Assembly (NCBI GenBank): GCA_003554585.1
Contig: PWGV01000077.1
Coordinates: forward strand, 1-40,815
DNA from: Halobacteroidaceae bacterium
Lineage (GTDB): Bacteria > Bacillota > Halanaerobiia > B1SED10-174
DNA: 40,815 nt
Reading direction: 5' to 3'
The notes beneath the pieces were generated by a model that did not search any database, was not told where the DNA came from, and saw nothing but the letters and a program-made list of their open reading frames with translations. Both the position numbers and the translations under genes were made by a program. Within the stretch, counting starts at the first letter, position 1. Each line of letters starts with the position of its first letter. Below, one piece after another: positions 2,755-23,083 of the stretch.

Positions 2755-4176
2755 TCAGGTTAGTTTGTCAATAAAATCCAGAAGTTTTTTATCGATTTCT
2801 TTATCCAGCGGGGGAGCTTCATATTCTTCAATGATTTTTTGGTATCTTTCTCTGGCTCGCTTAACAATATCGGGTAATGGGCAGTCACTCATGTAGCGGT
2901 CCCGCATACTTACATCAGGCTGTCTCAATTCTTTCATATGGCGGTAGGTATGTTCGGTGGATAAAAAATGCCCTCCACTTCCTACATCGAGAATGGTTTC
3001 TTTGCCCAAATATTCATCATCTATTTCAATTCCACCGGCATATTCCTTGGCCATTCCACAAATTTCATCATCCATGACAAACTTTTCAAAGCACATAGTC
3101 ATATAGTTTTCCAGGAGGCCAGCGGAGTGCAGTATAAAATTAAATCCACTGCAAACACTTGTAAGGAAAACCATCATCGATTCATAACCACTCTGAGCAT
3201 CAGGAATAAGAGAATCGGTTAAACACCCCCCGCCCCGGGAAGGTATGTTATAAAAACGGGCCAGTTGGGCTGTTCCGCCAAACATTTTTGCAGTTTCCGG
3301 GCTCCCTATTGCCAGGTTTCCGGTTTTCAAATCGACCACACTGGAAGCAGAACCGTAAATTACAGGTGCTCCGGGATTAACCAGTTGCGCCAGAGTAATA
3401 CCGGAAATTATTTCCGTATTCTGTTGAACCAGGGCGGCAGCAATGGTTGATGGTGCTGTAGTTCCAGTCATGCTCAGAGAGGACACTATGGTGGGTTGAT
3501 TGTAGCGGGCGTAGACCATGAGAGCCTCGGTCATCCGTTTATCAAACTGCAGGGGACTGTTAGTATTGATGAGGGAAACCAGGACGGGGTGATTTTTCAC
3601 ATAAGTTTCTCCCCCGTAAATAATTGCAGCCATCTTAACGCTATCCATGGCTTTCTTGGCACCCATAGCGCTCCCCATCAGGGCTTTGTCGGTATATTTT
3701 ACACCGGTATAAATCATTTTAGCGTGTCGAATATTATCAGGAATATCATCCGGTTCAACCAGCACCCCTCCGACCACGTCAATATTGGCACTGTTACCTG
3801 CCAGCTTGGTAAAGCCAATATAATCCTGGAAGGTTGAGCCTCTTCTTTTCCCGGTTTCCATGTCCATGACAAAAGGAGAGCCATAACCAGGAGCTAAAAC
3901 AGTATGTTTGCCCCCTACGGTAACTTTTTTATCAGAGTTTCGGGAATGCATATCAAAACTCGATGGGGCCAGTTTTAATTGTTCTTCGATCATTTTGGCC
4001 GGGATATAAACAGTTTTTCCTTCAACCCGGGCCCCGTTTTCTTTAAAAAGCTTGCGAGCTTCCTCGTTATGAAAATCCACGCCCTCTTTTTGTAAAACCT
4101 CCAGGGAAATTTCATGAATTTTTTTTATTTCCTCCCGACCCATTACATCCAACGGACCAAGATCACGGACTATCAC
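2755..4176 (-). CDS. MttB-family (non-pyrrolysine) quaternary-amine methyltransferase, third copy
   Basis: This is a 473-residue TIM-barrel member of the trimethylamine methyltransferase superfamily (COG5598). It moves a methyl group from a methylated amine to a corrinoid protein. The region where Pyl sits in true MttB reads GGGCLTDSLIPDAQ with no in-frame UAG, as in the glycine-betaine-type (MtgB-like) enzymes. The C-terminal VGSGGHFLSTEHT block is typical. The start is GTG at 4176, 8 nt after GAGGGGG. It is clearly diverged from the two copies at 18499-22119, so it may act on another betaine or amine. It lies at the end of the large operon, separated from the Flox-like gene by a strong palindrome, and has no adjacent corrinoid gene of its own. 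The substrate cannot be read from sequence. Confidence 0.87.
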   Translation of the reverse strand: MIVRDLGPLDVMGREEIKKIHEISLEVLQKEGVDFHNEEARKLFKENGARVEGKTVYIPAKMIEEQLKLAPSSFDMHSRNSDKKVTVGGKHTVLAPGYGSPFVMDMETGKRRGSTFQDYIGFTKLAGNSANIDVVGGVLVEPDDIPDNIRHAKMIYTGVKYTDKALMGSAMGAKKAMDSVKMAAIIYGGETYVKNHPVLVSLINTNSPLQFDKRMTEALMVYARYNQPTIVSSLSMTGTTAPSTIAAALVQQNTEIISGITLAQLVNPGAPVIYGSASSVVDLKTGNLAIGSPETAKMFGGTAQLARFYNIPSRGGGCLTDSLIPDAQSGYESMMVFLTSVCSGFNFILHSAGLLENYMTMCFEKFVMDDEICGMAKEYAGGIEIDDEYLGKETILDVGSGGHFLSTEHTYRHMKELRQPDVSMRDRYMSDCPLPDIVKRARERYQKIIEEYEAPPLDKEIDKKLLDFIDKLT

Positions 4177-4214
4177 AGGTTAAACCCCCTCGTTGATTTA
4201 TATCTTTTTTTGTT

Positions 4215-4242
4215 AAGAGGGCTCCTAATTAGGAGCCCTCTT
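4215..4242. terminator. Strong palindrome between FloxA-like and third mttB-type genes
   Basis: An AAGAGGGCTCC / GGAGCCCTCTT inverted repeat flanks TAATTA. The T-rich tail is better on the plus-strand side, yet all genes here read minus. In the minus direction it is followed by TT then A-rich sequence. It may be a partial terminator or an RNA-stability hairpin that lowers expression of the following methyltransferase gene. Confidence 0.5.
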
Positions 4243-4265
4243 TTCTTCTAACCTGCCAGAATTAA

Positions 4266-5111
4266 TTAAAACTCAGCGGGCATTTGTTCCATTTGCTTGA
4301 GGTCAAACACCGGTCCATCCTTACAAACATAATGCCGCCCAATATTACAGCGCCCACACTTTCCAAGTCCGCAGGACATCTTCATTTCCAGGGTAGTAAT
4401 TATATTCGCAGGGTCGATTCCCGAATTTTTCAACTCTTCTGTAATAAACCGGATCATGATAGGTGGCCCGCAGGTAAAGAAAACAGTATCTGGCTCATTC
4501 AAATCCAGTTCCTCGTTCAATAACTCGTGGGGGTAACCTACACAATGAACCCAGCCCTCACATTCTTCGTCAATGGTATATTTTACTGAAGTATTGGGAA
4601 AATTTTCCCAGTTGGAAAAATCGTATTTATAAAGCATATCTTCCGGTGACCGGAAGGCCAGAAGCATCTGGACCCGCCCATATTGCTCCCGGTTTTTCTC
4701 ATCTAGGACATAATTGATTAAAGATCTGAGGGGAGCAAGCCCAATCCCCCCGGCCAGGAAAACAAGGTTTTTACCCTTGACCTTCTCATAGGGAAAATTA
4801 TTGCCAAAAGGTCCGCGAACCCCGATCTGGTCACCTTCTTTCATATTGTGGATAGCTTCTGTAACCAGGCCGGTTTCTTTTATTGAAATATCGAAATAGT
4901 CTTCCTGGGTTGGAGATGAAGCAAAACCAAAGGGGGCTTCTCCAACTCCAAAAACGGTCAGCTCTACAAATTGCCCCGGAAAAAATTCGAACTTTTTCCT
5001 TGCTTCTTCTTCGATCAACCGGATGCGGAAAGTTTTAATATTCAGGTTGGACCCGGTTTCCTGCGTTATTTTTATTATCTCTGCCTTGTGGGGTAAAAGA
5101 TACTTATCCAC
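4266..5111 (-). CDS. FAD/NAD(P)-binding oxidoreductase with C-terminal [2Fe-2S] site (FloxA / sulfhydrogenase gamma-like)
   Basis: This is a 281-residue ferredoxin-NADP-reductase-superfamily protein. The FAD-binding barrel carries FFPGQFVEL and PFGFASSP. The nucleotide-binding fold carries VFLAGGIGLAPLRSLI and FFTCGPPIMIRF. The C-terminus has the Cys pattern CGLGKCGRC...VCKDGPVF of dihydroorotate-dehydrogenase-B-type [2Fe-2S] domains. In Flox/Hdr complexes this subunit exchanges electrons with NAD(H), and the same role is inferred here. The start is GTG at 5111, overlapping the end of the preceding gene (stop at 5104), with GGGGGTGA upstream. The overlap implies translational coupling. It is the last electron-transfer gene before the hairpin at 4215. 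Confidence 0.85.
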   Translation of the reverse strand: MDKYLLPHKAEIIKITQETGSNLNIKTFRIRLIEEEARKKFEFFPGQFVELTVFGVGEAPFGFASSPTQEDYFDISIKETGLVTEAIHNMKEGDQIGVRGPFGNNFPYEKVKGKNLVFLAGGIGLAPLRSLINYVLDEKNREQYGRVQMLLAFRSPEDMLYKYDFSNWENFPNTSVKYTIDEECEGWVHCVGYPHELLNEELDLNEPDTVFFTCGPPIMIRFITEELKNSGIDPANIITTLEMKMSCGLGKCGRCNIGRHYVCKDGPVFDLKQMEQMPAEF

Positions 5112-6147
5112 TACTCTTCACCCCCTCTTCATCCTTAAGGTATTTTTCAGCAGTTTTTAAAATAACCCGTAAATCAATATTCACCGGACACTGGCTGATA
5201 CATCGCCCGCAGGCCGAGCAGGCCGGAACCCCATCAAAATTATTGGGGTGATAGGAGAATTTGTGCATTATCCGCTGTCTTGTCCTCTGGTCCTGGGTTT
5301 CACGAGGATTATGCCCCGAGCCATGCTTGGTAAAGAGGGGGAACATGCACGAATCCCAGGTTCTCCACTTATCAATTTCTTCTTCTCTTTTCTCCCAGAA
5401 AAACCCGAAGCAGAAGCAGGTCGGGCAGTAATAAGTGCATACCCCGCACCCCAGGCAGTTGGCAGCAACTTCCTTCCAGAAAGGAGCATTAAAAGCTACC
5501 AGTTCGGGGATAGGAATGGGAACACCTATTTCAATCGCGGACTTCTCAAATTCTTCCTGCCAGGCTTTTTTCATTTTTTCCAGCTCTTCGGGATCTCCAT
5601 CGGGATAATCGGCAAAAAATTTCTCAAGTTCACTGTCGGTTACATTAAACCAGATCTTTTCCCCGTCATCATACATATAAACAGGAACATTTTCATCTCC
5701 CAGGGGATTGATGCCCAGAGAGTCGCAGAAACAATTTTCCTGCCTTTCACTGCATCCCAGTCCAAACATTACCGTATTTTCAAGGCGCTTTTGAAAGTAA
5801 GTGTCGGTAAAATCATCGTCCAGAAAAACGGGTTTGAGAATTTCAATTGCTCTCAAATCACAGGAGCGGACCCCGAAAATCAGGTTTTTCCGGCCTCCAA
5901 GTTCAATAACCGGTTCACCACTTTTTTCTTCCCCGAGTCTCTCGTTCTGAGGTAGAAAAAACTTTTTTGGGGGGGTATCTGGCTGACGGTTAAGGTGGAT
6001 TTCATTAAAATCCTCAACCTGATGGTACTCCACCCGCTCCTTTTTGCCGTATTTTCGAATTACCGGTGCCACTATCCGGAACTCGCCGTCCAGTTCTTCA
6101 AGTAATTTCCCCAGCTCATCTTTTTGCAATACTTTTAACACTGCCAC
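5104..6147 (-). CDS. 4Fe-4S dicluster protein (FloxB / sulfhydrogenase beta-like)
   Basis: This is a 347-residue soluble iron-sulfur protein. An N-terminal domain includes the family block FGVRSCDLRAI. It is followed by two ferredoxin-like Cys motifs, CLGCGVCTYYCPTC and CSACGRCISQCP. This layout is that of the beta subunit of sulfhydrogenases and FloxB, which links the NAD-binding flavoprotein to partner iron-sulfur subunits. The start is GTG at 6147, just after AGGAGGGGGTGA; a second GTG two codons on is also possible. It overlaps the FloxA-like gene by 8 nt. The sequence is rich in Asp and Glu, mildly suggestive of a salt-adapted host. The family assignment is good; the exact complex is inferred. 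Confidence 0.82.
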   Translation of the reverse strand: MAVLKVLQKDELGKLLEELDGEFRIVAPVIRKYGKKERVEYHQVEDFNEIHLNRQPDTPPKKFFLPQNERLGEEKSGEPVIELGGRKNLIFGVRSCDLRAIEILKPVFLDDDFTDTYFQKRLENTVMFGLGCSERQENCFCDSLGINPLGDENVPVYMYDDGEKIWFNVTDSELEKFFADYPDGDPEELEKMKKAWQEEFEKSAIEIGVPIPIPELVAFNAPFWKEVAANCLGCGVCTYYCPTCFCFGFFWEKREEEIDKWRTWDSCMFPLFTKHGSGHNPRETQDQRTRQRIMHKFSYHPNNFDGVPACSACGRCISQCPVNIDLRVILKTAEKYLKDEEGVKSSG

Positions 6148-6157
6148 TCACCCCCTC

Positions 6158-7000
6158 CTAATCCAGAAATCCCTGTTCGCTGTCATTAAGCTTATAGGTA
6201 GCGAACAAAGTTTTTTCTTCAGGGTCCAAACCCGGTTCAAATTGGTAAACTTCTTTTGCAACCCGGTACAGGTGCTTGGTTAGAGCCCGCATATTTATCC
6301 CCTCAGGACAGGCCTGTTCACAGGCCCCACAGTTAATACATCTCCCGGCCATATGCATGACCCTCATCAGGTGAAAGGTAAAATTATCACGCTTTCCAAT
6401 GCTGTTGCCAACCCACTGCGGTTGGTTGCTGTCGACAAAGCATTCATCGCATGCGCAAACAAAGCAGGCTTCCCGGCAGGCATAGCAGCGAATACAGCGG
6501 GCAAATTCTTTCTGGAAATATTCAAACCTTTCCTCGCTGCTCATACCTTCCAGGTCATCTTCTATTTCAGCGTCAACGTCTTCTGAACGGGGTTTCCCTA
6601 TCTCTTCATCTGCAACAACAGGATTGCGAACTCCACATTCATCACAGGCATCGTTTTCTTCCAATCCCTCGCAATCATTGATCCCAATTATATATACTTC
6701 TTCTCGTTTGATTAATTCTTCCGCAAGGTAAACCGTAATTGCTCTGGTGTCGCAGGGTTTTGCCACAATCCCGGTTTTGCTCCCCTTGTAATCAAGCAGG
6801 TACTTGGCCAGCATCATATCGCATTCTGGGGTGAACAATAATTCTTCTGCTCTTTCGGATTCTGTAACAAATATGGGGGTTATTTGGCCGGTAAATTCTC
6901 CCCGGCCAAACCCGATAATTCTCTCTACCTTCCCCTCGGAGAGGATTTTTCGACCTGCTTCCTGGATTTTTTTGCTTATTTCAGAGTAGTTATTTCCCAC
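6158..7000 (-). CDS. Iron-sulfur electron-transfer subunit (FloxC-like, coenzyme F420 hydrogenase beta-like N-terminus)
   Basis: This is a 280-residue protein. The N-terminal half resembles FrhB-type or formate-dehydrogenase-associated subunits (AKPCDTRAI, a Cys pair in NDACDECG). The C-terminal half has two Cys clusters, CIRCYACREACFVCACDEC and CINCGACEQACPEGI, for two [4Fe-4S] centres. The likely start is GTG at 7000, preceded by GGAGGAG at 7-8 nt, inside the end of mvhD (11-nt overlap); an extension to 7060 is rejected. It lies between mvhD and the FloxB-like gene, so all three probably form one electron-transfer unit with HdrA. What oxidises or reduces it is inferred from neighbours only. 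Confidence 0.78.
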   Translation of the reverse strand: MGNNYSEISKKIQEAGRKILSEGKVERIIGFGRGEFTGQITPIFVTESERAEELLFTPECDMMLAKYLLDYKGSKTGIVAKPCDTRAITVYLAEELIKREEVYIIGINDCEGLEENDACDECGVRNPVVADEEIGKPRSEDVDAEIEDDLEGMSSEERFEYFQKEFARCIRCYACREACFVCACDECFVDSNQPQWVGNSIGKRDNFTFHLMRVMHMAGRCINCGACEQACPEGINMRALTKHLYRVAKEVYQFEPGLDPEEKTLFATYKLNDSEQGFLD

Positions 7001-7454
7001 TGGCCATCTCCTCCTCTCTGCGGGCAAAACCCCTGCCGTCAAATCCTTCCCAGGGCCCAACTTCTTTGATCCTGGTTACAACCCTATCAACTATGGCCGC
7101 AAATCTTTTTCCTTCGGAAGCTGAACACCAGGTGAAGTTAACCCTCTCTTCTGCTATACCCGCGTACTGCATTAGTTCTTTTAGCATCAAAAATCTGCGC
7201 CGGGCATAGTAGTTTCCGTCAAGATAATGGCAGTCTCCAGGATGGCACCCGGATACTAAAATCCCATCCACTCCTGAATTAAAGGCCCTGATTAAAAGGA
7301 AGGGATCTATCCTTCCTGAACAGGGAACCCTGATTACCCTGATTTGTGGAGGATACTGCATCCGACTGCTTCCCGCAAGGTCGGCTGCAGCATAGCTGCA
7401 CCAGTTGCATAAAAAAGCAAGTATTTTGGGTTCAAAATTTTCCTTAGCCGCCAT
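6990..7454 (-). CDS. mvhD: MvhD-type [2Fe-2S] electron-transfer subunit
   Basis: This is a 154-residue protein with the hallmarks of the methyl-viologen hydrogenase delta subunit family: LCNWCSYAAADLAG, RVIRVPCSGRIDP and VSGCHPGDCHYLDGN. In known complexes MvhD docks on HdrA and passes electrons to its FAD. The ATG at 7454 begins directly after the hdrA stop, with GGAGGG in the hdrA tail. It is followed by the Flox-like genes, which suggests that here MvhD connects HdrA with an NAD-linked Flox module rather than with a hydrogenase. No [NiFe] hydrogenase gene is present. Confidence 0.92.
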   Translation of the reverse strand: MAAKENFEPKILAFLCNWCSYAAADLAGSSRMQYPPQIRVIRVPCSGRIDPFLLIRAFNSGVDGILVSGCHPGDCHYLDGNYYARRRFLMLKELMQYAGIAEERVNFTWCSASEGKRFAAIVDRVVTRIKEVGPWEGFDGRGFARREEEMASGK

Positions 7455-10400
7455 TTATAATCCCTCCCCTTTGAGCGGAGCGGGTTCGCGGTCCGCAAAA
7501 ATGGCTTCCATTTCCTCAACCAGTTCCTGATTGCTAAATCCATGCAGGTCGGCTGCGTGCGGACGGCAGACTGAAGCACAGCTTCCACAGCCCTTGCAAA
7601 GGATTTTATTTACTTCGGCCTTGCCGGTCCACTCACTTATTTCAATTGCCTGGTAGGGACAGACCTCGACACAGTTTCTGCAGCTCATACAAAGGTCGGG
7701 ATCAATCTGGGCAACCATGGCCTCTGTAAGCAGGTACTCCCTGGTTAGGATAACCGCGGCCCTTCCTGCAGCAGCCCTGGCCTGGGAGATAGATTCGGTT
7801 AGATTTTTAGGCCCATGGGCGAGCCCACAAAGGTATACCCCGTCTGTAGCAAAATCCACAGGCATTAATTTAACGTGGGCTTCCAGGAAAAAGCCGTCTT
7901 CGTTTAATGGAACTTTCAACTGCTTGCTTAAAACGTCGCTATTTTCCAGGGAAACTACAGCCTTGGAGAGGACCAGGAGGTCTGCATTTTCTGCCCTGGA
8001 TACTTCTGCCACTGGATCCCGGTAGGAAATAGTTAGCTTTCCATTTTTCTCTTCCACCTGAGGTTTTTCCTCCACATCAAAACGAACAAACTTAACTCCC
8101 AATTGGCGGGCCCTGCGGTAATTATCTTCATAATAACCATAGGTTCGAATATCCCGGTACAGGATTGTAATATCCATTTCGGGATGTCTTTCTTTTAGAT
8201 ACACCGCATTGCTTACAGCCTGATTGCAACAGAGTCGACTGCAGTATTCCCTCGGTTCCTCCCGGGAACCAACGCACTGGATCATGAATACCTTTTTAAT
8301 TTCTTTGGGGAGATTTTTATCTCTGATTTTTTCTTCAAGTTGTAGCTGGGATATTACCCTGTCGTGTTTTCCGGAAAGGTATTCGTCGGTTTCAAGTTCC
8401 CCGGCACCTGTAGCAACTATAACAATTCCGCCTTCAATCTCTTTTTGCTCCCCTGCTCCCTCAGTTTCCGGATCCAGGACTATTTTGAAGTTTCCTACAT
8501 ATCCGTCAACTTTACTGACGCTGTAACCTGTATAGGTTTCAATCAGGTCATTATGCAATACTTTCTCTCGGAGCTGGTCGACAAAACGCCTGGCCGGCCT
8601 TCCTTCAGGAGTAAAAAGAAGATTATTGGCATTACCGCCGAGTTCATTTTCTTTTTCTACCAGAACTACCGGGAAACCGATATCGGCAAGCTGCAGCGCT
8701 GCAGTCATTCCTGCAACTCCCCCGCCGATAACAAAGCCTTTATTCAGCTTGTCAACCCGACTCCTTTCCAGGGCCCGGGTTTTCTTGGCTTTGGCAACCG
8801 CTCCCTTGATCAGGTCAAAGCCTTTCTTCGTTGCTTTCTCTTTTTCTTCCCGGTGAACCCAGGAATTCTGGTCCCGGATATTGGTCATTACCATGAGGTA
8901 AGGATTTAATCCACCCCAGGAGACAGCCTGCCGGAAAAGTGTTTCGTGGGTCCGGGGAGTACAGGAAGCAATTACTACCCTGTTCAGGTTCTTTTCCTTG
9001 ATTCTCTGCCCGATTAATTCCAGGTTATCCGGCGAGCAGAGGTACTTGATTTCCTCGGAGTGTTCGACAAAAGGCAAGTGTTTTGACTGCTCGGTAACCC
9101 GGGGAACATCCACAACTCCCCCAATATTATTACCACAGTGGCAGACAAAAACTCCAATCCGCACTCGTTCGTTGTCAACGAAGCGGTAAGAAACTTCTTT
9201 CTTATCCTCTTTTTCTTTTTTCAGTTCAGGAAAGCGGCGAGCAATAATAGCCGCCTGGGCGGCAGCTCCGCTGGCTTCGATAACCGATTCCGGGATATCC
9301 TTGGGCCCGGCGGCAACACCACAGGTAAATATTCCCTTGCAGCTTGTAGCCAGGGGATCAAGTTCGTCCGTTGCCGCAAAACCATATTTATTAACCCTGA
9401 TTTTTAGCCTTTTCATCATTTCGGTCACCTGGGTATTCGGCTTCAAGCCAACCCCCAGGACTACCAGGTCATATTTTTCTTCGGAAAATCGGCCTTCTTC
9501 ATCGAGACCTTTAACAATTATCTGCCCATTATCAGGATCCTCTTCCACCCTGGCTACCCTGCTGCGCCGGAAATTAACCCCTTTTGTGGCTTCGGCAGTA
9601 TTATAGTACCTTTCAAAACCCTTTCCGTAAGCCCTGATATCCATATAATAGAGGTCAATTGCCTCGATTTCCTCAGAATGTTCGCGGGTAACAAGGGCCT
9701 GCTTGATGGAGTACATGCAGCAGACCGCGGAACAGTAATTACAGTCGGTCCGGGTATCCCGGGATCCCGCGCAGTGAAGGAAGGCTATTTTCTTGGCTTC
9801 TTCTCCATCACTAACCCTTTGAATGTGTCCCTCGGTCGGACCTGAAGCACTGAGGTAACGTTCATATTCCAGGCTGGTAATTACATTGGGATGCCGGAGA
9901 TAACCATATTCACTGACCATTTCACCCTGGAAAGCTTCGTAGCCTGCGGCATAAATTACTGCTGCCACGGAAAGCTCCATCTCTTCGGGCTTTTGATTAT
10001 AATCAACAGCCTTTTTGTCGCAGACCTTTTCACATATTCCACATCGATCCTTGTTGATTTTCAAACAGTGCTCTGGATCAATGGTTACAACATTGGGCAC
10101 ACCCTGATCGTAGTACTTGTAAATACCCTTTCTTTTTACCAGACCTTCATTGTATTCATCCAGGACTTTAACCGGGCATTTTTCAATACACTCACCACAC
10201 CCGGTACAGGCGTCTTCGATTATATAACGGGGATTCTTCCGGAGCTTAATCCGGAAATCGCCCTCCTTACCCTGGATATCAAGAACATCGCTGTAGGTGT
10301 AAGTGGTAACCATTTCGTGGTTGTAGCAGTCGCTAATTTTTGGTGCAAGAATACAGGTCGAACAGTCGTTGGTGGGAAAGGTTTTATCAAGCTGGGCCAT

Positions 10401-10520
10401 CCTCCCTCCCAGGCTTGGTGAACTCTCCACAAGGTAAACTGGAATTCCCATTTCACCGAGGTCGAAGGCTGCCTGTATTCCAGCAATACCTCCTCCGATT
10501 ACCATAACCGGTTTAGCCAT
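7455..10520 (-). CDS. hdrA: Long HdrA-type flavoprotein with duplicated FAD domain (electron-bifurcating scaffold)
   Basis: This is a 1021-residue protein, larger than the roughly 650-residue archaeal HdrA. Order: first FAD fold (GGGIAG near residue 9); Cys motif CSTCILAPKISDC (about 53-65); ferredoxin-like insert CTGCGECIEKCP (about 105-116) and CGICEKVC (about 160-167); thioredoxin-reductase-like fold; HdrA-specific block VFVCHCGNNIGGVVDV (about 460); second FAD fold GGGVAGMTAA (about 600) without the Cys insert; C-terminal CMSCRNCVEVCP and CKGCGSCASVC. HdrA is the flavin scaffold that bifurcates electrons in heterodisulfide-reductase-type complexes. I choose ATG at 10520, with GGTGGTG upstream, over GTG at 10532. 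It overlaps hdrC by 8 nt. No hdrB lies nearby. Confidence 0.92.
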   Translation of the reverse strand: MAKPVMVIGGGIAGIQAAFDLGEMGIPVYLVESSPSLGGRMAQLDKTFPTNDCSTCILAPKISDCYNHEMVTTYTYSDVLDIQGKEGDFRIKLRKNPRYIIEDACTGCGECIEKCPVKVLDEYNEGLVKRKGIYKYYDQGVPNVVTIDPEHCLKINKDRCGICEKVCDKKAVDYNQKPEEMELSVAAVIYAAGYEAFQGEMVSEYGYLRHPNVITSLEYERYLSASGPTEGHIQRVSDGEEAKKIAFLHCAGSRDTRTDCNYCSAVCCMYSIKQALVTREHSEEIEAIDLYYMDIRAYGKGFERYYNTAEATKGVNFRRSRVARVEEDPDNGQIIVKGLDEEGRFSEEKYDLVVLGVGLKPNTQVTEMMKRLKIRVNKYGFAATDELDPLATSCKGIFTCGVAAGPKDIPESVIEASGAAAQAAIIARRFPELKKEKEDKKEVSYRFVDNERVRIGVFVCHCGNNIGGVVDVPRVTEQSKHLPFVEHSEEIKYLCSPDNLELIGQRIKEKNLNRVVIASCTPRTHETLFRQAVSWGGLNPYLMVMTNIRDQNSWVHREEKEKATKKGFDLIKGAVAKAKKTRALERSRVDKLNKGFVIGGGVAGMTAALQLADIGFPVVLVEKENELGGNANNLLFTPEGRPARRFVDQLREKVLHNDLIETYTGYSVSKVDGYVGNFKIVLDPETEGAGEQKEIEGGIVIVATGAGELETDEYLSGKHDRVISQLQLEEKIRDKNLPKEIKKVFMIQCVGSREEPREYCSRLCCNQAVSNAVYLKERHPEMDITILYRDIRTYGYYEDNYRRARQLGVKFVRFDVEEKPQVEEKNGKLTISYRDPVAEVSRAENADLLVLSKAVVSLENSDVLSKQLKVPLNEDGFFLEAHVKLMPVDFATDGVYLCGLAHGPKNLTESISQARAAAGRAAVILTREYLLTEAMVAQIDPDLCMSCRNCVEVCPYQAIEISEWTGKAEVNKILCKGCGSCASVCRPHAADLHGFSNQELVEEMEAIFADREPAPLKGEGL

Positions 10521-10956: not shown

Positions 10957-10958
10957 AT

Positions 10959-14934: not shown

Positions 14935-14965
14935 TTTTCTCCTCCTTAGGCCTGAGTTACTCCGG

Positions 14966-15763
14966 TTATTTGGCCAGTTTACCCTCCCGGGATGCTTTAA
15001 TATAATTGGTTCCATATGGATCCCTATTGAGGAGAACTTCAGTGGCCCGAACCAGGCTGACCAGGTAATTATCAAGCGGGTCAATTATCGCTGCATCCAA
15101 ACCTCTACCCATTGCCAGGACAATGAAAGCCTGGTTGAGAAGCGCTCTGCTGGGAAGCCCATAAGAAATATTACTAAGACCACAGGTAATATGGGCTCCG
15201 GTTCCCATCCTGGTTATTCCCTCAATAGTATCAAGAGCCTGCATTCCGTACTCACCATTTACCGCGATTGGCTTGATCAGGGGATCAAGGAAAACATTTT
15301 CCAGGGGTACCCCATCCCGATCCAGATCATTAAGCAGCTTTTCAGCAATACCCAGCCTTTCTTCTGCGGTTTCGGGCATCCCTTCGTCTCCCATGCAAAG
15401 GGCAATAACCTTGGCATTATATTCCCTGACCAGAGGCATAATTTTATCATATCTTTCTTTTTCTGCAGTAATAGAATTAATCATGGGAGTTCCCTTGTGA
15501 GTTTTAATTGCAGCTTCTAAAGCCTCGGGACTCGGGCTGTCGAGGGCCAGCGGTTTATCTACAACTTCCTGGACTTTTTCCACCAGCCAGAGCAGGTACT
15601 TGGTTTCCTGCTGGACAAAAGCCCCGGCATTTACATCAATATAATCCGCTCCACCCTCATCCTGCTTTTTAGCTATATCCTGAATATAATCAACATTACC
15701 TTCCTTCATGGCTTCCCGCATTACTTTCCTCGTGGAGTTAATAAGTTCTCCAATAATTATCAT
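14966..15763 (-). CDS. mtgA: Methyltetrahydrofolate:corrinoid methyltransferase (MtgA type)
   Basis: This is a 265-residue pterin-binding TIM barrel (dihydropteroate-synthase-like). Blocks seen: IIIGELINSTRKVM, YIDVNAGAFVQQE, PLALDSPSPEALEAAI, GTPMINSI, DPLIKPIAVNGEYG and TCGLSNISYGLP. This family moves methyl groups between THF and a corrinoid protein (MtgA, AcsE, MtvA). In this operon it would take the methyl from the methylated corrinoid proteins encoded upstream and make methyl-THF for MetFV. The ATG at 15763 has only a weak ribosome site (GAGAAAG). A strong one lies 30-40 nt upstream in front of a 10-codon open frame, so its translation may be coupled to that frame. Confidence 0.9.
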   Translation of the reverse strand: MIIIGELINSTRKVMREAMKEGNVDYIQDIAKKQDEGGADYIDVNAGAFVQQETKYLLWLVEKVQEVVDKPLALDSPSPEALEAAIKTHKGTPMINSITAEKERYDKIMPLVREYNAKVIALCMGDEGMPETAEERLGIAEKLLNDLDRDGVPLENVFLDPLIKPIAVNGEYGMQALDTIEGITRMGTGAHITCGLSNISYGLPSRALLNQAFIVLAMGRGLDAAIIDPLDNYLVSLVRATEVLLNRDPYGTNYIKASREGKLAK

Positions 15764-15792: not shown

Positions 15793-15815
15793 TGATTTCA
15801 CCTCCTTTGAAGGGT

Positions 15816-16472
15816 TTAAAAAAGCTTTTCCCTGACTACCATTCTCCCCGGTTCTACAACTAAAAATTCTTTGTCCCACTTTCCTGTCACAAGTTTTTTT
15901 AAAATTTCTGCAGAACCTTCGATTATTTGCATTTCAAGACCCAAAAACTCTGCAGCCCTCCGGGAATATTCTATATATTTCTCGGGATTTTCAGTGCCCG
16001 GGGTCTTGATATAAACCAAGCGCTTGTAATTTTTATATTCTTCTCCCATTACCCAGCGGGCGTTTTCCTCGCCAACTCTTTCAGTATAATCTTCAAACTG
16101 GGTTAGGGGGTCACCACCGTGTTCAATCCAGCCCCGGCTTAAATAAATAGTCCCGGGTTCACCGGAAAACTCTTCGTTATAACGTTCCCGCGAACCCAGC
16201 AGCAAGGCTATACAATCGTGAGCCCTGGGAATAATCAGTTTCTTTTTTTTGCTTTTCAATCCCAGGGTTCCGTGGCTGCAGAGGCCGTAGCCCAAAAGTA
16301 TACTATCCCATTTATCAGGGGTTTCATCGATTTTTTCCTGCAAGGTTTTCTGCAGCTTATGGGGATGGCGGTGCAGACCGTATTCCAAAAATTCCATTTC
16401 CATATTTTCGGGGGCGAAGGCCTGAATTTCTGTTTTAACTGTTGAACAGGCAATTATTTTTTTAATTTTCAT
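15816..16472 (-). CDS. DUF1638 protein associated with corrinoid methyltransferases
   Basis: This is a 218-residue protein of the DUF1638 family, often found beside corrinoid methyltransferase genes and of unknown function. Conserved-looking blocks are IACSTVKTEIQAF, LGYGLCSHGTLGL, IIPRAHDCIALLLGS and YLSRGWIEHGGDPL. The Cys and His residues in the second and third blocks could bind a metal or cofactor. The start is ATG at 16472 in GGGGTGATG, overlapping the hyuA-like stop by 11 nt; an earlier frame opening at 16556 lies within the neighbour and is rejected. Its place between the ATPase and mtgA suggests a role in corrinoid handling or in substrate preparation. This is inference. Confidence 0.8.
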   Translation of the reverse strand: MKIKKIIACSTVKTEIQAFAPENMEMEFLEYGLHRHPHKLQKTLQEKIDETPDKWDSILLGYGLCSHGTLGLKSKKKKLIIPRAHDCIALLLGSRERYNEEFSGEPGTIYLSRGWIEHGGDPLTQFEDYTERVGEENARWVMGEEYKNYKRLVYIKTPGTENPEKYIEYSRRAAEFLGLEMQIIEGSAEILKKLVTGKWDKEFLVVEPGRMVVREKLF

Positions 16473-18468
16473 CACCCCACGGTCGACCAACAGCTGAAAA
16501 CTCAATAATTGTCTCAATAAAGAGCCGGTTTTGTTCCTCTTCCCCCTCAGGAACAAAACCGTACAGATTGGTGAACTTATCTTCCCGGTGCTCCATTATT
16601 TCGATATCTAAAGCTCCCGAGTTTTCTGCTTTTTCGTATACGTGCTCTCTCCCTATCTTCCGTCCGTACTGGACGGCTTCCTCCATTTCTAAGAACCCCT
16701 CCCGGCCCGCGGGGGTATAAACAAGATAGCCCCCGTGTTCGCCGGGTTTTACTGTTACCTGGATTCTCTCAATCACCTTACCGCTGACCGTTCCCACCGC
16801 GTTTGCCACTTCCGCCGATTCAGGAAGCTGCAGGGAAGCGTTGAGCTTCTCGGCAATCTGGGGGAAGTACGCTCCCACCGGCGCTCCTACGGCGATTAGA
16901 GGTATGTTTACCCGGGTGGAAAATTCGATCAACCTTTTTTTTTCTTTTCCTTTCCCAAAAATCTTCTGTAAAAAGAAAGTGGATCCCCTGTCTTCAAGCG
17001 ACAAACCTTCCTCGCGACATCCAGCCAGGACTTCAATCAACAGTGATGAGACCTGGTAATAAATTTTTTCCAGCACTGCTTCCATAAAAGCCTGACCATC
17101 TTCGGACATCCGGCGAGCCATTATCTTCATGCCAATTTCAGCCGCTTCTTTATTCCACTGGTCAAAATCACCAGAAACGTGCAGAAGATCGGTGGGTGTC
17201 AGGGAGGCCCGGTGTAATGAGCCAACATTAACCAGCCTCTTCCAGGGGATTACTTCTGGATTCTTTTGCAGTTTCCGCCCCAGGTGGAAAAGAGTGTGCG
17301 GGCTTTCCTTGAGCAATTCCAGCATTAAGCTTTCAGTCTCGCTTAATTCCAGGTTTGCCGGGTCTTTAATATGCACAAGGATAGTGGTGGGCTGATTTTC
17401 CAGGGGAAAGTAAATTTCTTCCCAGATTTCCTTCAATTCCTCCAACAGCTGGGGAAACCGATCTACAACCCAGGCCAGGGGGAAAACCCTCTGAGGGCCT
17501 ATTGAAAGCTCTCCTGAGCTGGATACTTTAATCAAACTATCTCCGCCGAGGCCAACGGTCGTAATATCCGCTGCCTTAACCCGGGTCATCCAGCCTCCTA
17601 CCCGGGCCCCTTTCTGATTAAGGGAGGGACGACCATCCTTGATGATTGCAATATCAGTTGTAGTTCCTCCCATATCCACAACAACGCCTTCTTTCAGGCC
17701 GGTAAGAGCCATGGCTCCAATAATGCTCGCGGCAGGACCGGAAAGAAGAGTTTCTACCGGGCGTTCCCGGGCCATTTTTTCACTGATTAGGGTCCCATCA
17801 CCTTTAACAACCATTAAGGGGGCACTTATTCCCCGGGTTTTTATATTTTCTTTTACTGCATCTATTAAGTTGGTAATCAAAGAGATCAGGCGGGCATTGA
17901 AAACTGCGGTAACTGTTCTCTCCCTAAAACCCAGGTCAGAAGAAAGCTGATGACCGCTAACCACCGGGCAACCTGTCATTTCCGAAATCAGGCGAGAAAC
18001 CTGGATTTCCTGTTTGGGGTTGCGGACACTCATATAGCCAGAAACTGCAAAAGCTTCAACTTTTCCTTCCAGGGATTTAACTGCTTCCTCGGCTTCCTTT
18101 AAATCAACTTCGCGGGTTATTCTTCCCCGCACATTACAACCACCCCTTATACTTGCATAATGGGGGGTGGGCAGGGGCCCGTCCGGTTCAAATCCAACTT
18201 GAATTAAACCGACTTCGGCGCCCTGCCCTTCAACAATGGCATTGGTTGCCAGGGTAGTGGATAAGGATATCATTTTGATCTCACTTAAGTTATATTCATC
18301 GGGCCACTGGTCCAAAAGCCCCTGCAGGCAATTATCAATGGCCAGATGTAAATCGTGCCTGGTTGTAACTACCTTGGTTTTGCAGAGGATCTCCTTTTTA
18401 TCCAGTTCCCAGATTACTCCGTCGGTGAAAGTTCCTCCGGTGTCAATTCCCAATGCCAGATTTGCCAT
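16462..18468 (-). CDS. HyuA-like hydantoinase/oxoprolinase-family ASKHA ATPase
   Basis: This is a 668-residue ASKHA-fold protein. The N-terminal motif GIDTGGTFTDGVIWE and the second phosphate motif VDMGGTTTDIAIIKDG are typical of the hydantoinase A/oxoprolinase family, whose members use ATP in ring opening or in acetone-carboxylase-type reactions. The usual partner HyuB (COG0146) is not present in the window, and the gene sits between an mttB-type gene and DUF1638. The start is ATG at 18468, 8 nt after GAGGAGGAG. Family members occur in methyltransferase clusters. Possible roles are ATP-dependent activation of a corrinoid system (the fold is shared with RACo) or opening of a cyclic N-methyl substrate. 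The substrate is unknown. Confidence 0.82.
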   Translation of the reverse strand: MANLALGIDTGGTFTDGVIWELDKKEILCKTKVVTTRHDLHLAIDNCLQGLLDQWPDEYNLSEIKMISLSTTLATNAIVEGQGAEVGLIQVGFEPDGPLPTPHYASIRGGCNVRGRITREVDLKEAEEAVKSLEGKVEAFAVSGYMSVRNPKQEIQVSRLISEMTGCPVVSGHQLSSDLGFRERTVTAVFNARLISLITNLIDAVKENIKTRGISAPLMVVKGDGTLISEKMARERPVETLLSGPAASIIGAMALTGLKEGVVVDMGGTTTDIAIIKDGRPSLNQKGARVGGWMTRVKAADITTVGLGGDSLIKVSSSGELSIGPQRVFPLAWVVDRFPQLLEELKEIWEEIYFPLENQPTTILVHIKDPANLELSETESLMLELLKESPHTLFHLGRKLQKNPEVIPWKRLVNVGSLHRASLTPTDLLHVSGDFDQWNKEAAEIGMKIMARRMSEDGQAFMEAVLEKIYYQVSSLLIEVLAGCREEGLSLEDRGSTFFLQKIFGKGKEKKRLIEFSTRVNIPLIAVGAPVGAYFPQIAEKLNASLQLPESAEVANAVGTVSGKVIERIQVTVKPGEHGGYLVYTPAGREGFLEMEEAVQYGRKIGREHVYEKAENSGALDIEIMEHREDKFTNLYGFVPEGEEEQNRLFIETIIEFSAVGRPWGDEN

Positions 18469-18498
18469 TCCCCGGACTCCTCCTCTGTAATTTAACTT

Positions 18499-19953
18499 CT
18501 AGCCTTTGAGTTTTTTTTCAGCATCTATTACAATCTGTCTGAGCTTCTCTTCAACATCCTTGGGTAAGGGGTCTGGTTTGTGAGTTTCAAGGATATTGAT
18601 TACTTTGTCGTTACTGCGCTGGAAGAGGTTTTTCTCTCCTTCTTTTACCCAGTTTTCATATATCTTGCGCTGGAACAACTCCGGGTAGTAAGTTTCGGTT
18701 TTATAATGGTTCATGGTATGTTCCTGAGCAAGGTAATGTCCACCATGGCCTACTTTATCAATTACATCAAGAGCCAGAGTTTCTTCATTCACTTCAATTC
18801 CCCTGGTTATTCTGCGGGCGAATCCAATTAGTTCATCGCAAACTGTCAAGTATTCCAGAGAAGCAGTATTTCCATGCTCAATATATCCAACATCGTGGTT
18901 TAAGTTCGCCCCTGACATGGAAGTTGTCAGGATGGAAATTGCCCCTTCAATTGCTGCCTGCTCATCAACAACCTTGGAGTCAGTGCAGCCGCAGGTTCCG
19001 AACATGGGAATATCGAGGAAGCGGGAAATATCTGCCAGGCCTGCCTGCAGCAGGTGGAATTCTGGAGCTCCATAAGCAAAAATTGTAGTCTTCATATCCA
19101 TGATCGTAAAAACTCCGCCCATGATGAATGGACTACCTTCACTGGTTTCCTGATTAAGAACGAGACCGCTCAAACTTTCAGCGAGTCCAGTAGCCAGTCC
19201 ACCAGCCATTGTTATGGGTACTGTTCCACCAAACATGGGGCAGGGTGTGTAAACAACGGGCAGTTTTTTCTTGGCAGCCAGGACCAGTTTCTGCGCTGAA
19301 TCCCCGGGATGCTGGAGGGGAGAAATTGGTTCCGCATAGAGAGTCATAAAGGGGTTGCGCTGTAGTTCCTTTTCTCCACCGGCTACAATTTCACACATTT
19401 TGATTATATCAGAATATCCCTCAACATCTATTGCAGTAATTACAATGGGCTTGGAGGTGTTGAGAACCATAGCTTCGAACTGATGCCTGTCGTAGATTTC
19501 CTGGGGAACGTCCTGGACAATTCCCAGGGACATAATGAAGTCGATGTTGGGCAGGGCATCCAAAACCTTGGAAGCCATGGTTACTGTTTTCTTGCTGGTT
19601 GGGATCCTGTTATTGGTATAGGGGTCAATGAAAAACGGCGTATCAGAGCCCGAACCGAAGTAAGCGTTGTTGCCCTCCATTTCCATAACCCTTTTCCCGG
19701 TCCTGCTGTTGCAGAGGGTTACTTTGGAAGGAACAGTTCGCAATGCTTTTTCTACCAGTTTAACCGGAATCCGAACTCTTTTTCCTTCTACGGAACAGCC
19801 AGCCTTTTCCAGGATTTCCAGTGATTCTTTATCATGATAAACTACACCTGTTCTTTCCAGTATCTCCATGGCCGCTCCCAGTATATGTTTACACTGGTCA
19901 TCTGAGAGGACCTGAAGGTCAGCAGATGCATTTATTCCGAAATTACTTCTCAT
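18499..19953 (-). CDS. MttB-family (non-pyrrolysine) methyltransferase, second copy
   Basis: This is a 484-residue COG5598 TIM barrel. The segment corresponding to the Pyl site in trimethylamine methyltransferase reads GTCGCTDSKVVDEQAA, with no UAG. The active-site neighbourhood MDMKTTIFAYGAPEFH and the tail block VGHGGHYLAQEHTMNHY match the glycine-betaine-type group. It would demethylate a quaternary amine onto the corrinoid protein encoded 24 nt upstream (19978-20613). The start is ATG at 19953 after AGGAGAGGTGG. By eye it shares roughly half its residues with the copy at 20629-22119, so the two probably differ in substrate (for example glycine betaine against another betaine). Which substrate cannot be decided here. 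Confidence 0.9.
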   Translation of the reverse strand: MRSNFGINASADLQVLSDDQCKHILGAAMEILERTGVVYHDKESLEILEKAGCSVEGKRVRIPVKLVEKALRTVPSKVTLCNSRTGKRVMEMEGNNAYFGSGSDTPFFIDPYTNNRIPTSKKTVTMASKVLDALPNIDFIMSLGIVQDVPQEIYDRHQFEAMVLNTSKPIVITAIDVEGYSDIIKMCEIVAGGEKELQRNPFMTLYAEPISPLQHPGDSAQKLVLAAKKKLPVVYTPCPMFGGTVPITMAGGLATGLAESLSGLVLNQETSEGSPFIMGGVFTIMDMKTTIFAYGAPEFHLLQAGLADISRFLDIPMFGTCGCTDSKVVDEQAAIEGAISILTTSMSGANLNHDVGYIEHGNTASLEYLTVCDELIGFARRITRGIEVNEETLALDVIDKVGHGGHYLAQEHTMNHYKTETYYPELFQRKIYENWVKEGEKNLFQRSNDKVINILETHKPDPLPKDVEEKLRQIVIDAEKKLKG

Positions 19954-19977
19954 GCTGCCACCTCTCCTTTCCTCTTT

Positions 19978-20613
19978 TTAGCGGCCTACCAGTTCGATGG
20001 CCAGATCCTTGGCCGAGGCTGCATCAGGTGCCCAGCCGTCGGCGCCAATTTCATCCGAAAAATCAGAAGTTACCGGTGCTCCACCAATAATTATTTTAAC
20101 TGAATCTCTCAGACCTTCTTCTTGCAGGATCTCGATAGTATCCTTCATTGCCAGCATGGTTGTAGTCAGGAGAGCACTCATGCCCACTATGTCGGGCTTG
20201 TGTTCTCTAACTGCTTCGGCAAACTTCTCCGGTTCAACATCCATTCCCAGGTCGATTACTTCCATGCCGCCGCTTTCCATCATCATGCCAACCAGGTTTT
20301 TCCCGATATCGTGAAGGTCACCGGCTACTGTTCCCAGGACCACCTTACCGGTCGAGGTTACTTCCCCTTCAACAAGCAGGGGCTTAACCAGATCCATACC
20401 AGAATTCATTGCCCTGGCAGCCATGAGAACTTCGGGAACATACATGTCTCCCTCTTTAAACCTCTGGCCTACAACGTTCATTCCCTTAATCAAACCTTCG
20501 TTAATAATAGCTGCAGGTTTGGAACCTTCATCAATAGCCTTTTGAGTCAATTCAGTGGCTTTTTCCACATTACACTCGATAATCGCATTTTGCAGGGCTT
20601 CAAAATCTGCCAT
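19978..20613 (-). CDS. Methyltransferase corrinoid protein (MtbC/MtgC-like), copy 1
   Basis: This is a 211-residue two-domain corrinoid carrier. An N-terminal four-helix cap (residues 1-90) is followed by a B12-binding Rossmann domain. The base-off/His-on motif is GDLHDIG (D-x-H-x-x-G), with GMSALLTTTM and IIIGGAPVT completing the cofactor pocket. It accepts methyl groups from the MttB-family enzymes and passes them to MtgA. It is about 90% identical by eye to the copy at 22142-22777; differences cluster in residues 18-40 and 84-92. It sits between two mttB-type genes, 15 and 24 nt from them, and has a good ribosome site (GGGGGAG). Confidence 0.95.
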   Translation of the reverse strand: MADFEALQNAIIECNVEKATELTQKAIDEGSKPAAIINEGLIKGMNVVGQRFKEGDMYVPEVLMAARAMNSGMDLVKPLLVEGEVTSTGKVVLGTVAGDLHDIGKNLVGMMMESGGMEVIDLGMDVEPEKFAEAVREHKPDIVGMSALLTTTMLAMKDTIEILQEEGLRDSVKIIIGGAPVTSDFSDEIGADGWAPDAASAKDLAIELVGR

Positions 20614-20628
20614 TATTAATCTCCCCCT

Positions 20629-22119
20629 TTATTTCTTTTTGGCCTTTTGGGCCTTATTGGCTTCCCGCTCTTCCGCCTTTTCCACAATCGAGTCAATCTC
20701 TTTATTAACTTTTTCAGACAGCGGCTTGGGCTGATGTTCTTTGAGTATTGAATGGAGTTTATCTCTCACCCTATCTCCCATGCTTGAACTATTCGCTTTT
20801 TTCTGCCAGCCGTCATGCCTCATCCGGTTGATTAGGGTGGGGAACCAGGTTTCTTTTTTAAAGTTATCCATGGTATGGAGTTCACCAAGATAATGCCCTC
20901 CTGGACCAACCTTATCAACTACATCCAGGGCCAGGGTATTTTCGTTGATCTCAATACCCCGCATGAACCTCTTGACCATGGCTATAATTTCATCATCCAT
21001 AACCAGTTGTTCTAAAGATCCAGTTGATCCGGATCCGGTGTAACCACAGTCGTGGACCAGGTTTGCCCCGGACAGAGCTGCCATAAGTATACTCATTGCT
21101 GCTTCTCCGGCTGCCTGGCCGTCGAGAATATGGGCATCAGTGCAACCAGCAGTGCCGAATACGGGCATTTTCATGTGGTGTGCGACTTCAGCAATCCCGG
21201 CCTGCATGGTGTGAAATTCAGGACTGCCATAGCTGAAAACAGTCGTTTTCATATCCATAATCGCATAAACCCCGCCCATAATTATGGGAGTTCCGGGCCT
21301 TACCAGCTGGGAAACAATAATCCCCACCAGACTCTCTGCAACACCCAGGACGAGCGTTCCGGCCAGGGTTGCCGGTGCAGTTGCACCTGACATTACACAG
21401 GGAGTATACACGATGGGGATCTTATTTTTGGCTGCAAACACAGCCTTGGCTATAGCTTCTTCTGAGTGTAAGAGCGGAGAGCTCGGTTCAGAATAAAGGG
21501 CTAAAAATGGTCTCTGCTGGAGGTTTTCCAGTCCTCCTACAACCACCGCTGCAATATCAGTAATAGCCTGGTACTGGTCAATATCAAAACCCCAGTGGAC
21601 AATAGGCTTATTGGTATTGGATACCAGGGCCCTGAAGGCATGTACATCGGACAGGGTGTCGGTAACCCCGGTGGGGGTTCCCAGATCCTGCACAAAATCA
21701 ATGTTGGGCAGGGCATCGCAGACTTTAGCTACGTTTTCAGTATCGCTTATCACCGGACGGCGCCTTTCCCCTGTAAAGGGATCGCGATGGAAAGTATTTG
21801 TGGGTCCGGGTCCATAATAAGTTTTATTATCCTGCAGAACCATTGCCTTGTTGCCAAGTTGATCATAAAGAGTAACCCTGGACGGAGCACTGCGAACAGC
21901 CCATTCGCTTAACCCTACAGGGATCCTCACCCTGTTGCCGTCTACCCAGCAACCACCCTTTTTCAAAATTTCCAGTGACTCTTCATCGTAAATCTTCGCC
22001 CCGGTTCTTTCCAGAACTTCTGTTGCCGCGGAAAAAATATCTTCTCTCTGGGCATCACTTAGAAGCCGGAAATTCACGGTTTGATTAACCTTGTAACGGG
22101 ACTTAACGAAATTTCCCAT
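20629..22119 (-). CDS. MttB-family (non-pyrrolysine) methyltransferase, first copy
   Basis: This is a 496-residue COG5598 enzyme. The Pyl-equivalent segment reads GTAGCTDAHILDGQAAGE and is uninterrupted. MDMKTTVFSYGSPEFHTMQAG and VGPGGHYLGELHTMDNF are the family landmarks. It would pass a methyl from a quaternary amine to the corrinoid protein encoded just upstream. The start is ATG at 22119 after AAAGGAGAGG. The frame is open to 22248, but that extension overlaps the corrinoid gene and is rejected. The C-terminal tail is Lys/Glu/Ala rich (KAEEREANKAQKAKKK) and probably disordered. As the first methyltransferase after the sigma-54 promoter it may be the main enzyme of the operon. Confidence 0.9.
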   Translation of the reverse strand: MGNFVKSRYKVNQTVNFRLLSDAQREDIFSAATEVLERTGAKIYDEESLEILKKGGCWVDGNRVRIPVGLSEWAVRSAPSRVTLYDQLGNKAMVLQDNKTYYGPGPTNTFHRDPFTGERRRPVISDTENVAKVCDALPNIDFVQDLGTPTGVTDTLSDVHAFRALVSNTNKPIVHWGFDIDQYQAITDIAAVVVGGLENLQQRPFLALYSEPSSPLLHSEEAIAKAVFAAKNKIPIVYTPCVMSGATAPATLAGTLVLGVAESLVGIIVSQLVRPGTPIIMGGVYAIMDMKTTVFSYGSPEFHTMQAGIAEVAHHMKMPVFGTAGCTDAHILDGQAAGEAAMSILMAALSGANLVHDCGYTGSGSTGSLEQLVMDDEIIAMVKRFMRGIEINENTLALDVVDKVGPGGHYLGELHTMDNFKKETWFPTLINRMRHDGWQKKANSSSMGDRVRDKLHSILKEHQPKPLSEKVNKEIDSIVEKAEEREANKAQKAKKK

Positions 22120-22141
22120 TATACCCTCTCCTTTCCTCGAG

Positions 22142-22777
22142 TTAACGACCCACCAGGTCCATGGCCAGGTCTTTGGCGGATGCTGCATCGGGTGCCCAGC
22201 CGTCAGCACCAATTTCATCTGCAAAATCAGATGTAACAGGTGCTCCACCGATAATTATCTTGACTGAATCCCGCAGGCCTTCTTCCTGAAGAATTTCAAT
22301 TGTGTCTTTCATGGCCAGCATGGTGGTGGTTAAAAGTGCACTCATTCCTACAACATCGGGCTTGTGTTCCCGGACGGCTTCGGCAAACTTCTCCGGATCA
22401 ACATCCATCCCGAGGTCAATTACTTCCATGCCGCCGCTTTCCATCATCATTCCTACAAGATTTTTGCCAATATCGTGCAGGTCACCGGCTACTGTTCCCA
22501 GGACCACCTTCCTTGCGGTTGCAACCTCTCCCTCTACCAAGAGGGGTTTGCAAATATCCATTCCAGAATTCATTGCGCGAGCAGCCATTAAAACTTCGGG
22601 AACATACATGTCTCCCTCTTTAAATCTCTGGCCTACTACGTTCATTCCTTTAATCAAACCATCATTAATTACATCTGCCGGGCCGGCCCCCTGGTCAATA
22701 GCCTGCTGGGTTAATTCCGTAACCCGTTCTACATTACACTCGATAATCGCATTTTGTAAAGCTTCAAAGTCTGCCAT
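22142..22777 (-). CDS. Methyltransferase corrinoid protein, copy 2 (first gene of operon)
   Basis: This is a 211-residue corrinoid carrier with the same layout as copy 1: helical cap, GDLHDIG cobalamin-His motif, GMSALLTTTM and GGAPVT. It is the first gene after the sigma-54 promoter. Its ATG at 22777 follows AGGAGGAGGG. Being promoter-proximal fits the high amount of corrinoid carrier needed relative to the methyltransferases. The near identity with copy 1, in contrast to the diverged MttB partners, suggests either recent duplication of the carrier or gene conversion that keeps both carriers compatible with the same MtgA and activase. Confidence 0.95.
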   Translation of the reverse strand: MADFEALQNAIIECNVERVTELTQQAIDQGAGPADVINDGLIKGMNVVGQRFKEGDMYVPEVLMAARAMNSGMDICKPLLVEGEVATARKVVLGTVAGDLHDIGKNLVGMMMESGGMEVIDLGMDVDPEKFAEAVREHKPDVVGMSALLTTTMLAMKDTIEILQEEGLRDSVKIIIGGAPVTSDFADEIGADGWAPDAASAKDLAMDLVGR

Positions 22778-23057
22778 TGGTCCCTCCTCCTGTTTTTTTC
22801 CCTCACCTGCGTCCTACCTGTTTTAACTGCTTTATCCCCTCCAGGCTTAACCCGGGACAAAACAGATTTTCCAAACCTTAACAGCCAAAAACGCTTAGCC
22901 GGATTTGTTTTTTCCAGGCCAATCATCCCCATAAAGGGAACAAGTGAAATATCTTTTTCCCACCTCCTCTTCCTCCCCACGGGGGTTTTACCAAACAGGA
23001 TTACTACCTTCTAACACTTAAACTTTGCATTTCTTTCCATTCCTAAAGTTTTCCACC
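22778..23057 (-). other. Long (about 280 nt) 5' leader of the methyltransferase operon
   Basis: No convincing gene is seen between the inferred sigma-54 start site and the first ATG. The leader is purine rich and has an internal ribosome-like GAGGAGGTGG near 22961-22970 with no good start after it. A GTG-started frame at 22980-22729 lacks a ribosome site and runs into the corrinoid gene, so I do not call it. I see no cobalamin box or other known riboswitch. Confidence 0.4.
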
Positions 23058-23067
23058 AAAATAAAAC

Positions 23068-23083
23068 TGCAAAAAGCGTACCA
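23068..23083 (-). promoter_or_regulatory. Sigma-54 promoter of the methyltransferase operon
   Basis: The minus strand reads TGGTACG-CTTT-TTGCA. It matches the sigma-54 consensus TGGCACG-N4-TTGCW with one change and the exact GG-N10-GC spacing. The predicted start is near 23057. A sigma-54 activator gene ends 211 bp upstream. Confidence 0.85.

Follow-up and report, generated by a model that had tools for sequence, protein, structure and literature searches.

A putative quaternary-amine methyl-oxidation locus in an uncultured lineage of Halanaerobiia

The electron carriers of Hdr-type methylene-tetrahydrofolate reductases (MTHFRs) are an open question in acetogen energetics, and a locus on contig PWGV01000077.1 of Halobacteroidaceae bacterium (assembly GCA_003554585.1; 40,815 nt, the whole stretch analysed, here called the window) raises it in a particular form: do its betaine-demethylation and methyl-oxidation genes, which stand in one row, constitute one machine, and to what would that machine pass its electrons? 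The source is a metagenome-assembled genome (MAG; 215 contigs totalling 2.89 Mb, with 91.5% completeness and 5.4% contamination) of an uncultured salt-loving anaerobe of the Halanaerobiia, whose closest named relatives are MAGs of the Halanaerobiales/Halanaerobiaceae. Based on gene content and order, we propose that this is a dedicated quaternary-amine methyl-oxidation locus of the lineage, with the pathway set out below, a reading to which we assign a probability of about 0.7, and that the row of genes is probably one dedicated machine.

Downstream of a sigma-54 site at 23068-23083 lie 18 genes, all on the minus strand, in the order MtgC, MttB_A, MtgC, MttB_B, hydantoinase-like, DUF1638, MtgA, HdrA2N, HdrA2C, MetV, MetF, HdrC, HdrA, FlxD, FlxC, FlxB, FlxA and MttB_C (Table 1). 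A preliminary description of this DNA had named two corrinoid proteins, three MttB types, MtgA, MetF, MetV, HdrA, HdrC, MvhD and Flox-like subunits in one colinear operon; Pfam and NCBIfam back these families (the last two as MvhD/FlpD and Flx-type subunits), and their strand and order are as it stated. Absent from it were the DUF1638 and hydantoinase-like genes, the split second HdrA, and a tetrahydrofolate (THF) riboswitch, FolT and RACo below 2755. With corrected starts, successive junctions measure 22, 15, 24, 30, -11 and 52 nt from the first MtgC (22777) to MtgA, 31, -8, -22, -8, 2 and -20 nt from MtgA to HdrA, and 0, about -11 (the FlxC start being uncertain), 10 and -8 nt from HdrA to FlxA (4266). 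The claim that gaps stay below 60 nt therefore holds from 22777 to 4266 but not at the last junction, where 89 nt containing a hairpin separate FlxA from MttB_C, the largest junction of a row in which the others range from -22 to +52.

The gene order seen in relatives is stronger evidence of a functional unit than the spacing of the genes. The preliminary description had called for a search for the same order in other anaerobes, and the core HdrA2-MetV-MetF-HdrC-HdrA-FlxD is kept in 17 genomes from five families at 36-98% protein identity. Thirteen of the 17 also carry MttB genes in that stretch; in G003, G005 and G053 (G denotes a genome and L a locus) the contig breaks off early on one or both sides, and G009 has no MttB although its contig continues. 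No other MetF or MetV was found in the window's own genome outside the locus, which together with the conserved order supports the earlier claim of one pathway. Unless an assembly gap hides a further copy, any flux through the methyl branch would rely on the enzymes encoded here. Proteins of about 520 aa from other Halanaerobiia that resemble MetV were set aside as MetF-DUF5981 fusions, about 28% identical and not accompanied by Hdr genes. The cluster-type MetF forms one clade (100/98), consisting of the Halanaerobiia (100/100) and one genome each of Clostridiales, Spirochaetes and Synergistales, whose HdrA2-MetVF-HdrC-HdrA-FlxDCBA loci (L107, L131 and L141, respectively) resemble the window in redox gene order and MetF clade but have neither MttB nor MtgC in the part retrieved and show 26-65% protein identity. 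Two of these three carriers bear the sample code Th196, which we take to denote termite gut. Among the public MetV loci compared (the best 80 of 472), linkage to MttB occurs only in Halanaerobiales/Halanaerobiaceae MAGs, and we found no account of a linkage between betaine-methyltransferase and methyl-oxidation genes in the literature searched.

The methyl-capture half contains an MtgB orthologue, MtgC corrinoid proteins and MtgA for transfer to THF. A comparable set of methyltransferases, in a nine-gene glycine betaine cluster of ‘Ca. Formimonas warabiya’ DCMF, responds to glycine betaine with strong induction; Sporomusa ovata and ‘Ca. Frackibacter’ hold parts of that cluster (PMC9768040). 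The window and DCMF each have three enzymes of the MttB family, two corrinoid proteins, one methyltransferase II (MTII) and a hydantoinase-like protein, and in both there are BCCT betaine transporters close by, the DCMF set including two transporters. Going by this precedent, the enzymes probably act on glycine betaine and on the products of its partial demethylation. Unlike the window, the DCMF cluster has no MetVF, Hdr or Flx genes, and DCMF Wood-Ljungdahl proteins are abundant on both substrates (PMC9768040).

The redox half is compared with known MTHFRs, of which types I-IV are listed, the Hdr type being type IV (PMC8760232). With type IV of Moorella thermoacetica and Sporomusa ovata the window shares MetV, MetF, HdrA, HdrC and MvhD in one cluster, which in Moorella is one transcript (PMC8760232, PMC9430772); it differs in having no HdrB, added FlxABC, a second, split HdrA and methyltransferase genes in the row. 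Judged by gene content, the arrangement fits none of the four published types exactly. No CCG-domain protein that could be HdrB is encoded among the cluster genes (the rest of the genome was not searched), and no locus holding all three Flx genes gave an HdrB motif match. A further likeness is to FlxABCD-HdrABC of Desulfovibrio vulgaris, reportedly described by Ramos et al. in 2015 as the NADH side of an Hdr complex: FlxA, B, C and D beside HdrA and HdrC are common to both, and the window differs in lacking HdrB and in having MetVF in its place.

Aligned to Methanothermococcus HdrA (5odc), the window HdrA has the ferredoxin-domain insert and places Glu224/Lys277 at Glu356/Lys409, which we take to be the 5odc numbering of the bifurcation pair. 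Both sequence marks of a bifurcating HdrA, the Glu/Lys pair near FAD and the insert, are thus present; the pair has been put forward as the mark of a bifurcating flavin, and the insert is reported missing in Moorella and Sporomusa HdrA (PMC9430772). The HdrA of G053 (L053:6477-10958) is enlarged by a sizeable additional insert resembling the NAD(P)H module of the glutamate-synthase small subunit (GltD type), reminiscent of the GltD domain of Moorella HdrA (PMC9430772).

We propose the following pathway. MtgB and the two further non-pyrrolysine MttB enzymes would transfer methyl groups to MtgC from glycine betaine, and probably also from the products of its demethylation or from related amines; RACo would keep the corrinoid active. 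MtgA would pass the methyl group to THF, the folate being supplied through FolT, and MetVF would oxidize methyl-THF to methylene-THF. Less certainly, the electrons would move from MetVF via HdrC to HdrA, where reduced ferredoxin would add electrons of its own, and from there pass through FlxD and FlxCBA to NAD+ in a reverse bifurcation. The relevant potentials are -200 mV for methyl-THF and -320 mV for NAD+/NADH (PMC6295475), so that methyl-THF oxidation with NAD+ is uphill; if ferredoxin supplied a further pair of electrons, the overall balance would be close to neutral and this step would be overcome. Given the insert and the Glu/Lys pair of HdrA, confurcation is a reasonable expectation, and the complex perhaps works in this way. 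We tentatively go further, at somewhat less than even odds, and suggest a fifth MTHFR arrangement, an HdrB-less MetVF-HdrC-HdrA-FlxABCD methyl-THF oxidase that would confurcate methyl-THF and ferredoxin electrons to NAD+, in a betaine operon and even where acetyl-CoA synthase is lacking. The alternative that NAD+ or a carrier in the membrane receives the electrons directly, ferredoxin taking no part, is a real possibility though not a probable one: the Hdr-type enzymes of Moorella and Sporomusa did not show ferredoxin coupling and that of Sporomusa is partly membrane-attached (PMC8760232, PMC9430772), but the window HdrA keeps both the pair and the insert missing from theirs (PMC9430772), and FlxA supplies an NAD(P) site. 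The locus brings the candidate partners, NAD+ via FlxA and ferredoxin at HdrA, together within a single gene block open to expression and assay.

The row also raises the question of how it is transcribed. The preliminary description placed a sigma-54 promoter at 23068, for which the consensus alone is weak (two sites at one mismatch in the window against 0.72 expected, with as many in 13 of 100 shuffles). Stronger support comes from a block of about 20 nt around the site that is identical in three species amid a diverged intergenic region, and from nine occurrences of the pattern genome-wide against none for a reversed control. A 516-nt intergenic region separates the activator gene from the first MtgC, and the inverted repeat AAAATGAGA/TCTCATTTT within it has the same sequence, and the same distance to the -24 box within 2 nt, in G000, G002 and G004. 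The genome encodes rpoN, so that a -24/-12 site, an upstream site, an activator gene and sigma-54 itself are all found within the genus. We propose that the block from 23068 to 4266 is probably a single sigma-54-dependent message induced via the adjacent activator; a single transcript across the row is plausible. A second sigma-54 site (36562-36577, minus strand) lies 44 nt upstream of gene 35612-36517, the first of a further cluster on that strand whose members include an amidohydrolase, a C39-like peptidase and a beta-eliminating lyase.

At the 3' end the border at 2755 given earlier is too high. The THF riboswitch recurs in G001, G002, G009 and G014 and RACo is the last gene of the cluster in other families too, from which the conserved unit extends to at least 122. 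The hairpin stands at the same place before MttB_C in all four congeners examined, with a different sequence in G001, G002 and G004; as an operon terminator it was rejected, the T-run being on the plus strand and an A-rich stretch following on the coding strand. Hairpin and riboswitch together indicate that the 3' end is probably regulated separately, with FolT, and perhaps RACo, probably governed by the THF level; in our scheme the hairpin may tune MtgB. A fuller division, in which sigma-54 would drive the methyltransferase genes, Hdr/Flx/MetVF would have a promoter of their own, and MtgB and FolT-RACo would form units apart, would accommodate both elements, the redox modules that stand alone in other phyla and a sigma-70-like match near 12545-12574. 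That match stands among many chance matches, promoter-like matches being no commoner than in shuffles, and the genes overlap or nearly touch from 22777 to 4266; we regard this division as less likely than not. Just downstream of RACo, a tRNA gene (1-54, minus strand) is cut by the contig end; complete tRNAs stand there in G001 and G002.

In which direction would the methyl branch run? Thirteen carriers reach a completeness of 90% or more; six of them (G000, G005, G028, G036, G044 and G053) have AcsB, which was not detected in the other seven (G001, G003, G009, G014, G034, G042 and G054), and the retention of the cluster in genomes without detectable AcsB makes it most likely that the complex oxidizes methyl-THF. 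That the redox half is instead the usual methylene-THF reductase of the Wood-Ljungdahl pathway, which would run in the reductive direction for acetogenesis and simply happen to adjoin methyltransferase genes, would suit the carbon monoxide dehydrogenase/acetyl-CoA synthase (CODH/ACS) and Fhs genes of the window's genome, its lack of another MetF or MetV, the acetogen-type character of MetVF and the redox modules without MttB in other bacteria, yet those seven carriers and an MttB linkage kept across families make it improbable.

Several points weigh against the proposed locus function and its control. The window's own genome has CODH/ACS, including AcsB, on a contig whose tetranucleotide distance to the window is 0.088 (0.084 for the Fhs contig, 0.10 for congener G004); contamination was considered, and this close profile makes the contig probably genuine, so that acetate from methyl groups is possible there, with the caveats that the MAG is 5.4% contaminated and that no other genus member has detectable AcsB. 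Absences in MAGs may reflect assembly gaps, the hairpin and riboswitch speak against one simple transcript, and the Hdr-type reductases tested so far showed no ferredoxin coupling (PMC8760232, PMC9430772). A looser pattern gave no sigma-54 site in the cluster upstream regions of G009, G014, G028, G034, G044 and G052; sigma-54 control, its site found only in the window's genus, is not extendable to other carriers and looks like a genus-level addition onto an older gene block.

The earlier suggestion that the whole methyl-oxidizing route is inducible was overstated for this genome. A urocanase/formiminotransferase (histidine-utilization) cluster on contig 65, away from the window, holds FchA and Fhs, and the locus contains no FolD or formate dehydrogenase gene, so that with later steps encoded elsewhere the claim is unsupported here. 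It may be nearer the truth in relatives, since Fhs comes next after MttB_C in eight of them (G014, G028, G034, G036, G044 and G052 by BLAST; G054 and G057 by sequence reading), and next after FlxA in G009, which has no MttB_C. Betaine/glycine reductase as a general electron sink was rejected (GRDB was not found in the genome and is mixed among carriers), as was a constant MetF need for methionine synthesis (no S-methyl_trans domain in the genome; MetE was not searched). The locus suggests that the methyl branch of some halophilic anaerobes burns betaine, an abundant osmolyte, rather than making acetate.

Table 1. Features of the locus in the window, from upstream to downstream
Feature	Position	Strand	Remarks
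Sigma-54 activator (PAS, AAA+, Fis-type helix-turn-helix), PrdR-like, likely regulator	23294..25093	-	best NCBIfam match PrdR, 399 bits, below cut-off 795
Inverted repeat AAAATGAGA...TCTCATTTT, candidate activator-binding site	23155..23199	-	conserved in G000, G002, G004
Sigma-54 -24/-12 site TGGTACGCTTTTTGCA	23068..23083	-	290 nt upstream of MtgC
MtgC-like corrinoid protein 1	22142..22777	-	by homology; 90.5% identity to copy 2
MttB_A, non-pyrrolysine MttB-family methyltransferase, Cys at Pyl position	20629..22119	-	
MtgC-like corrinoid protein 2	19978..20613	-	matches MtgC/pyl_corrinoid models
MttB_B, non-pyrrolysine MttB-family methyltransferase	18499..19953	-	
Hydantoinase/oxoprolinase-like ASKHA protein	16462..18468	-	
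DUF1638 protein	15816..16472	-	
MtgA, methyltransferase to THF	14966..15763	-	above NCBIfam cut-off, NF005719
HdrA2N, FAD part of split second HdrA	13876..14934	-	
HdrA2C, ferredoxin part fused to MvhD/FlpD domain	12546..13883	-	
MetV, sole genome copy	11875..12567	-	
MetF, sole MTHFR-family gene of the genome	10959..11882	-	
HdrC-like 2x[4Fe-4S] protein	10513..10956	-	
HdrA, 1025 aa, two FAD domains, ferredoxin-domain insert, Glu224/Lys277	7455..10532	-	
FlxD/MvhD	6990..7454	-	
FlxC-like 4Fe-4S protein, start uncertain (open reading frame opens at 7060)	6158..7000	-	position and 4Fe-4S domains only
FlxB-like, AsrA/sulfhydrogenase beta family	5104..6147	-	
FlxA-like FAD/NAD(P)-binding subunit with 2Fe-2S domain	4266..5111	-	
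12-bp hairpin before MttB_C	4215..4242	-	T-run on + strand only
MttB_C, MtgB-type glycine betaine methyltransferase	2755..4176	-	PDB 9yce/2qne, E 8e-142
THF riboswitch	2561..2664	-	Rfam RF01831, 55.8 bits, cut-off 36
FolT-like energy-coupling factor (ECF) folate transporter S component	1958..2503	-	PDB 4z7f, 2.3e-13; start corrected, behind riboswitch
RACo-type reductive activator of corrinoid proteins	122..1858	-	

MttB_A and MttB_B share 48% identity, and their identity to MttB_C is 29%. A pyrrolysine-type MttB was rejected, as there is no TAG inside the three genes and the aligned position holds Cys or Leu, MttB_B reading like MttB_A (Cys) in the motif that matches the pyrrolysine position. 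Rfam PYLIS_3 nevertheless matches the minus strand at 21045-21145 in MttB_A and, below the cut-off, at 18888-18987 in MttB_B; these matches to genes with no amber codon arise from the shared mttB coding sequence and are a trap for annotation. With 90.5% protein identity and 81% DNA identity between the two MtgC copies, a recent duplication or gene conversion is likely. Further MttB-family genes of the genome are a tandem pair on contig 101 (L063:3251-6169), one on contig 31 (L064:18307-19803) and a seemingly broken one on contig 86 (L065:10070-11027). Upstream of the activator, a BCCT (betaine/carnitine/choline transporter) gene at 29345-30946 is intact, and the adjacent second copy (27637-29212, minus strand) is interrupted, its open frame stopping at 28118 and its homology to the G002 copies running in-frame to 27746, after which the frame shifts.

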